37,651 bases of DNA, from NCBI GenBank assembly GCA_945907245.1, contig CAMDTB010000032.1:1-37651 (forward strand). The letters run 5' to 3'. The notes under the pieces are model-generated. The model did not search any database, was not told where the DNA came from, and worked only from the letters and a program-made list of their open reading frames with translations. Both the position numbers and the translations under genes were made by a program. The DNA is from Rhizobium sp. Q54. GTDB taxonomy: Bacteria; Pseudomonadota; Alphaproteobacteria; SMXS01. Positions 1,794-5,478 of the stretch are shown here, piece by piece; the first letter of the stretch is position 1, and every line of letters starts with the position of its first letter.

Positions 1794-1822
1794 TTGACAG
1801 CCATGCGGATGGCGCATGTTGT
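1794..1822 (+). promoter_or_regulatory. Candidate sigma70-type promoter for the asd leader
   Basis: A perfect TTGACA lies at 1794-1799. Seventeen bases later is TGTTGT (1817-1822), a weak -10. Transcription would begin near 1829, about ten bases before the first possible start codon of the threonine-rich leader ORF at 1838. The -10 is poor, so the call rests mainly on the exact -35 and its position. Confidence 0.4.
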
Positions 1823-1837
1823 CCCGGCGAGACGCCC

Positions 1838-1930
1838 ATGTTAAACAGCCGCCCCATGTCGATGACCAAAACCACCACCACGACGAAAACGACCGCTTCG
1901 GCGGGGCGTTCGCTGGTGCGCGCGGGTTAA
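1838..1930 (+). CDS. Threonine-rich leader peptide upstream of asd
   Basis: A short frame ends in TAA at 1928-1930. ATG codons at 1838, 1856 and 1862 would give 30, 24 or 22 residues. From the ATG at 1862 the peptide begins MTKTTTTTKTT: eight of the first eleven residues are Thr (ACC and ACG codons) and two are Lys, followed by a nine-residue Ala/Ser/Gly/Arg-type tail. Thr and Lys are both end products of the pathway fed by Asd, the next gene. The arrangement resembles classical ribosome-mediated attenuators such as thrL of enterobacteria. I favour 1838 because of a weak GGCGAG upstream and closeness to the predicted transcription start, but the start is uncertain. Chance low-complexity sequence cannot be excluded without comparison to relatives. 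Confidence 0.5.
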   Translation: MLNSRPMSMTKTTTTTKTTASAGRSLVRAG

Positions 1931-2008
1931 GAGCGGCAAATCAGCGGAAGCCCCGGAGACGGGGACACGCTTACGCCGCCCCGTCTCTCCCCCAACAAAG
2001 GAAGAGAC
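1902..2008 (+). promoter_or_regulatory. Competing hairpins between Thr leader and asd; possible translation attenuator
   Basis: Mutually exclusive pairings can be drawn by eye. One: CGGGGC (1902-1907) with GCCCCG (1950-1955), leaving GAGACGGGG (1956-1964) to pair perfectly with CCCCGTCTC (1979-1987), which keeps the asd ribosome-binding site free. Two: CCCCG-GAGA-CGGGG (1951-1964), a GNRA-capped hairpin, which frees GTCTCT (1983-1988) to pair with AGAGAC (2003-2008), over the asd Shine-Dalgarno sequence. Ribosomes stalled at the Thr codons would leave 1902-1907 available for the first fold. There is no U-tract, so control would be of translation rather than termination. Folding energies were not computed. 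Confidence 0.4.
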
Positions 2009-2012
2009 GATC

Positions 2013-5403: not shown

Positions 5404-5478
5404 GCGGGCGTAGCTCAGGGGTAGAGCATAACCTTGCCAAGGTTAGGGTCGTGAGTTCGAATCTCATCGCCCGCTCCA
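5404..5478 (+). tRNA. tRNA-Gly (anticodon GCC)
   Basis: A full cloverleaf is readable: acceptor arms GCGGGCG (5404-5410) and CGCCCGC (5468-5474) pair perfectly, the D arm holds TAGCTCAGGGGTAGAGCA, the anticodon stem is TAACC/GGTTA with loop TTGCCAA (GCC at 5436-5438), and the T arm contains GAGTTCGAATCTC. The discriminator T at 5475 is followed by an encoded CCA. I saw no second copy of its 3' end in the window, so there is no sign of an island using it as an attachment site. Confidence 0.97.

Follow-up and report, generated by a model that had tools for sequence, protein, structure and literature searches.

A conserved Thr-codon-rich leader and a probable translational attenuator upstream of a second asd gene in alphaproteobacteria

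Results

A divergent second asd gene and its leader

The stretch analyzed here, 37,651 nucleotides from Rhizobium sp. Q54 (contig CAMDTB010000032.1; hereafter the window), contains near its start two neighboring and similar ORFs at 296–748 and 806–1252, both cupin-like and possibly dioxygenases, followed by a glyoxalase-like ORF at 1258–1772. Downstream of these lies an aspartate-semialdehyde dehydrogenase gene with a short ORF in front of it (Table 1). The gene product matches TIGR01296 (asd_B) with 368 bits against a cut-off of 324, and its nearest solved relative is 2YV3. The same genome also harbors a canonical asd (G000:C16:21515-22510), which shows 43% identity to the window gene and whose counterpart in G001, from the same genus, sits immediately 3′ of a leuB-like gene (leuB by eye). 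Judged from its sequence, the window gene is a second, divergent asd, here named asd2; the first-pass annotation had not recognized it as a paralog. Its closest relatives are dispersed among the alphaproteobacteria, in records titled Roseomonas, Neorhizobium, Bradyrhizobium, Inquilinus, Rhodobacteraceae, Phenylobacterium and others, though the titles of metagenome-assembled genomes may be wrong. The only match to Rfam at gathering level in the whole window is a tRNA at 5404–5475; the leader itself has none at that level, and at a permissive threshold the region 1750–2100 gave three chance-level scores only, with no threonine-leader or other family.

Table 1. Features of the asd2 leader region in the window
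Feature	Position	Strand	Remark
−35 element, TTGTCC (likely promoter)	1819–1824	+	Putative; the asd2 loci conserve a TTG roughly 37–32 bases 5′ of the leader ATG
−10 element, TTAAAC	1841–1846	+	Putative; conserved GCTAnnn-like element about 9–15 bases 5′ of the leader ATG
Leader ORF, MSMTKTTTTTKTTASAGRSLVRAG plus stop, 24 codons	1856–1930	+	Start lies 9–12 codons 5′ of K-T-T in 69/69 loci
Sensor codons, T-K-T-T-T-T-T-K-T-T	1865–1894	+	K1886, T1889 and T1892 form the near-invariant K-T-T
Segment 1 (CCGC)	1893–1896	+	Pairs with GCGG 1901–1904, inside the ORF
Segment 2	1901–1917	+	Partner is segment 1, or segment 3 via 1902–1907 and 1909–1917
Segment 3	1940–1955	+	Pairs with segment 2 (ON) or, via 1951–1955, segment 4 (OFF)
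Segment 4 (GGAGACGGGG)	1955–1964	+	OFF partner, segment 3; ON partner, segment 5
Segment 5 (CCCCGTCTCTCCC), anti-Shine-Dalgarno	1979–1991	+	ON partner, segment 4; OFF partner, segment 6
Segment 6 (AAAGGAAGAGACG), asd2 Shine-Dalgarno region	1997–2009	+	2000–2001 and 2003–2009 pair with segment 5
asd2, aspartate-semialdehyde dehydrogenase paralog, 347 aa	2013–3056	+	TIGR01296 asd_B match

The first-pass annotation had described eight Thr and two Lys codons within eleven codons read from an ATG at 1862. The frame M-T-K-T-T-T-T-T-K-T-T is present as described, but relatives keep the ATG at 1856 instead, and the candidate starts at 1838 and 1862 were set aside on the basis of the conserved distance from start to motif. 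The window contains six overlapping 11-codon stretches with at least seven Thr codons, every one of them in the leader, while 60 dinucleotide shuffles of the window yielded none. The promoter proposed earlier, a TTGACA near 1796, did not survive comparison: it is absent from near relatives, and a conserved −35/−10 pair is found at 1819–1846 instead. Given the spacing of this pair from the ATG at 1856, the transcript probably starts at that ATG or a few bases 5′ of it and would therefore be leaderless or nearly so. The S. meliloti trpL transcript is likewise reported to be leaderless or nearly so (PMC10117765).

The sensor codons are conserved in 69 asd2 loci

The first-pass annotation had proposed aligning the upstream regions of relatives in search of conserved Thr codons and compensatory stem changes. 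In 69 alphaproteobacterial asd2 loci, from which the duplicates L032 and L033 and loci with short upstream sequence were omitted, a short ORF with its Thr run is present 5′ of asd2 without exception, and its stop lies ∼76–105 bases from asd2. The start is 11 codons from K-T-T in 51 of the 69, the ATG nearest to that distance having been chosen where several were possible. More distant homologs, from other phyla, lacked a Thr run. Conservation of the element in alphaproteobacterial loci from many separate assemblies led us to reject an artefact.

Asd feeds the synthesis of Thr, Lys and Met, and Ile is made from Thr. In the sensor part of the 69 leaders, which runs through K-T-T and ends before the motif alanine, Thr accounts for 42% of codons, Lys for 17%, Ile for 11% and Met for 9%; together these residues make up 78% (rounded) of the sensor, compared with 4% of the ORF tail and 13% of Asd2. 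At motif position 0 all 69 leaders have K or M, at position 1 Thr is present in 68 and at position 2 in 65, and the peptide motif TKTTAxAG is strongly conserved. The codons themselves vary, with 245 ACC and 92 ACG for Thr, 69 AAA and 68 AAG for Lys, and mostly ATC or ATT for Ile. Thr, Lys and Ile are thus kept through synonymous codons, which indicates that the amino acids are under selection.

Alternative helices extend from the ORF to the asd2 Shine-Dalgarno sequence

All four pairings listed in the first-pass annotation are exact: 1902–1907 with 1950–1955 (CGGGGC:GCCCCG), 1956–1964 with 1979–1987 (GAGACGGGG:CCCCGTCTC), 1951–1955 with 1960–1964 (CCCCG:CGGGG) and 1983–1988 with 2003–2008 (GTCTCT:AGAGAC), the last adjoining the asd2 Shine-Dalgarno sequence. 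The first of these helices continues into 1909–1917/1940–1948 and the last extends to 1982–1991/2000–2009. An acknowledged weak point, that a ribosome at the stop codon would not clearly cover 1950–1955, is removed by a hairpin that had been overlooked, 1:2; in the consensus fold each of its pairs is kept in more than 60 of the 69 leaders, and a few leaders have both sides changed. Once the ORF has been read through, segment 2 would be held in hairpin 1:2, or covered by a ribosome resting on the stop codon, leaving 3:4 and 5:6 free to form. Helices 1:2, 3:4 and 5:6 probably conceal the asd2 ribosome-binding site, and 2:3 and 4:5 would release it.

MAFFT misaligns hairpin 3:4 of the window's closest relatives, and coevolution was therefore assessed by swapping segments and not by counting columns: the pairing energy of each segment with its own partner was compared with that obtained with partners from other species over 5,000 permutations. 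Own partners were better for 1:2, 2:3, 3:4, 4:5 and 5:6, with 0/5000 permutations reaching the observed mean in each case. Among 30 representatives sharing less than 70% identity, z for own versus swapped partners lay between −4.6 and −9.0, and among 49 sharing less than 85%, between −5.6 and −10.3; these values are indicative only, as related sequences are not fully independent. Coevolution is seen in all five helices. Helix 5:6 shows clear double changes, such as CGUCUCU/AGAGACG in the window and GUCUUCC/GGAAGAC in L066; further variants with both sides changed are the GUCCUUU/AAAGGAC form of L086, CUCCGGU/ACCGGAG in L088, GCUCUCU/AGAGAGC in L050 and GCCUCCGG/CCGGAGGC in L093. The Shine-Dalgarno helix 5:6 is conserved together with its competitor 4:5 and both coevolve, the arrangement that characterizes a translational attenuator.

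Modeled release coincides with the K-T-T codons

The effect of a stalled ribosome was modeled codon by codon by removing the RNA as far as the ribosome edge, assumed to lie 12 bases beyond the beginning of the A-site codon, and calculating the energy needed to open the Shine-Dalgarno sequence; folding was treated as an equilibrium, not as co-transcriptional, and the ribosome as a simple block. Averaged over the 69 leaders, the opening energy reaches its minimum at K-T-T (4.1 kcal/mol at K0, 4.0 at T1 and 4.8 at T2), with 6.8 kcal/mol at the codon after T2, 7.4 at the stop and 6.9 in naked RNA. Placing the edge at 9 or 15 shifts the minimum by one codon. The difference between stop and T1 is 3.4 kcal/mol in real leaders versus about 0 in shuffled ones, and it exceeds 1 kcal/mol in 57 of the 69 real leaders versus 7–13 of the shuffled. 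For the window leader the model gives 1.4–1.6 kcal/mol at K-T-T, 5.8 just past it and 4.8 at the stop; as naked RNA it is closed only in part, at 3.0 kcal/mol. A clear dip is absent in 12/69 leaders, near relative L005 included. With the ribosome stalled far 5′ in the sensor, most leaders stay closed in the model, which does not account for the Ile and Met codons there. In silico, the position of the stall at the sensor codons chooses between exclusive helices, as it does in an attenuator.

Related elements precede other genes

The 69 asd2 leaders were turned into a covariance model, which gave 63 hits at E ≤ 0.001 in 48 of 385 sampled genomes of the class. The genes 3′ of these hits are asd2-type (23), truncated thrS (13), a dapA paralog (6), DUF1127 (4, by eye) and GNAT acetyltransferase-like (3), and the remaining 14 hits, mostly weak, are unassigned. 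The model also found a second element in the Q54 genome (G000:C78:7369-7520, also L112:1501-1652; E 2e-13), located 5′ of a threonyl-tRNA synthetase gene, thrS2, whose 396-aa product has only the catalytic and anticodon domains by Pfam; a longer threonyl-tRNA synthetase copy is present on C30 (open frame 1078). In the thrS2 leader on C78, MNAMRRNQSTTTTTASGGRSCGRAR, all sensor codons are Thr, and a T-run stands at the end of hairpin 3:4, as in a terminator. Further thrS2 elements were found outside the class in a sample of the phylum (L221, L223). In general Thr codons abound in thrS2 leaders, almost always in runs, and Lys and Ile are scarce. Elements 5′ of the dapA paralog (L258–L268, from several class genomes) have Lys codons at the same place and, in nearly all cases, a terminator hairpin. 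That the sensor codons track the downstream gene, Thr before thrS2 and Lys before the dapA paralog, gives strong indirect support to the sensing of codon hunger.

Elements were also seen 5′ of DUF1127-like genes (L142, L154, L165, L222, L224 and L226), with leaders such as ..NHMTRFGWAVGGVAR, and, outside the class, 5′ of an isochorismatase-like gene with the leader ..TRTTTTTA.. (L218, L219). No Rfam family was found in representatives of the related elements. Taken together, the elements suggest a modular, widespread attenuator cassette, in which one hairpin architecture precedes several spare enzymes (asd2, truncated thrS2, the dapA paralog and others), the sensor codons match the gene, and a transcription terminator and a relay to the Shine-Dalgarno sequence are interchangeable as outputs, this one genome having an example of each; we favor this view, with some reserve.

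The output of the asd2 leader and competing explanations

An alternative is that the asd2 leader acts on transcription, with hairpin 3:4, or Rho acting on an untranslated leader, stopping transcription before asd2 and stalling preventing this. Most of the thrS2, dapA and DUF1127 elements, the thrS2 element of the same genome included, do carry hairpin 3:4 followed by 6–9 T in 11 bases, and clear T-runs are found in L007 and L087 by a hairpin scan and in L066, L072 and L076 by eye, some Rhodobacteraceae-type asd2 leaders being of this kind. However, no terminator-like site is present on the + strand at 1700–2100 of the window, 38 of the 69 asd2 leaders have two T or fewer after the hairpin chosen by the scan (a crude picker), and the coevolving helices 4:5 and 5:6 would be superfluous for a terminator alone. 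We regard transcription attenuation as unlikely for asd2, if still a serious competitor. In the window the output is therefore most likely translation initiation, to which polarity or Rho effects may possibly be added.

The strong conservation of TKTTAxAG as a peptide would also be expected if the nascent leader peptide, and not codon hunger, halted the ribosome on a metabolite or drug. Yet AxAG is accounted for by RNA hairpin 1:2, any of T, K, I and M may occupy the positions 5′ of K-T-T, and in related elements Thr gives way to Lys in keeping with the gene downstream, which together make such arrest quite improbable. Less probable still is a switch independent of translation, a riboswitch or protein site in which the ORF is incidental: the structure is strongly conserved, as such a switch would require, but the amino acids persist through synonymous changes, the distance from start to motif is fixed and the permissive Rfam search gave no match.

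Discussion

Sequence, conservation in 69/69 loci, coevolution of five helices and the coincidence of the best modeled release with the invariant K-T-T codons agree with the proposal of the first-pass annotation, and we consider it highly probable that the asd2 leader is a ribosome-mediated translational attenuator set by stalling at Thr codons, the best-supported reading of the locus. We infer that the leader is translated, that ribosomes stall in it, that it responds to Thr and that its output is translation initiation, not termination. In this mechanism the leader ORF would be translated while the RNA is synthesized. With charged tRNA-Thr, and probably tRNA-Lys, in ample supply, the ribosome would pass straight through, and segment 2 would be concealed by the ribosome and next by hairpin 1:2; 3:4 would then form, segment 5 would take the asd2 Shine-Dalgarno sequence and translation would stay low. 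When Thr is scarce, the ribosome would halt at K-T-T and mask segment 1, and 2:3 and 4:5 would form, opening the asd2 ribosome-binding site.

In the leader of enterobacterial thrABC, thrL, a ribosome stalled in a short ORF rich in Thr and Ile codons picks between exclusive pairings. The asd2 leader has in common with thrL such an ORF and, in the proposed mechanism, the choice of RNA pairings by the stall, but thrL controls thrABC through an intrinsic terminator, whereas in the asd2 leader no terminator was found and two extra segments would pass the choice on to the Shine-Dalgarno sequence. In the drug-sensing translational attenuators of the ermC/cat type, a stalled ribosome frees a concealed Shine-Dalgarno sequence. 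The asd2 leader would do likewise, but would sense hungry codons through a longer relay.

A closer precedent is SEP5, a small S. meliloti ORF in which Thr is coded six times and Lys three times and which lies 5′ of a gene called “aspartate dehydrogenase”; a 2023 ribosome-profiling study (PMC10117765) reports its translation by Ribo-seq and Western blot, proposes a leader peptide and gives conservation as Sinorhizobium only. The gene that follows SEP5 is apparently canonical asd. Most of 30 loci in family f174 have a SEP5-like Thr/Lys ORF, ending in TKTTAKTTTKTV or alike, 5′ of canonical asd1; from their sequences these leaders (L229–L257, L013) appear to be SEP5 homologs, and their distribution is broader than the reported one. 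The f174 leaders place Thr and Lys at the very end of the ORF (TKTTAKTTTKTV-stop) and have no Gly-containing hairpin motif, in contrast to the asd2 leader, which, judged by the f174 leaders, is set apart from SEP5 by both its gene and its anatomy. The first-pass annotation, which gave no Thr leader as known for an alphaproteobacterial asd, had missed this suggestion; such a Thr/Lys leader is therefore not wholly new. Another alphaproteobacterial uORF attenuator, that of an S. meliloti DUF1127 gene (PMC12218461), shares its type of target with the DUF1127-like hits but differs in that C-rich codons and probable Rho involvement are reported for it. A search of the open-access literature found no account of the elements that precede asd2, thrS2 or the dapA paralog.

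If correct, these findings would reveal a Thr-tRNA-sensing circuit of alphaproteobacteria for the spare copies of asd and of the threonyl-tRNA synthetase gene. They also suggest that both enzymes are kept in reserve for emergencies and induced once tRNA can no longer be charged with Thr (or Lys). The elements would, in addition, form a natural series: one attenuator would have changed not only the amino acid sensed but also the output, and how transcriptional attenuation evolved into translational attenuation could be tested directly.
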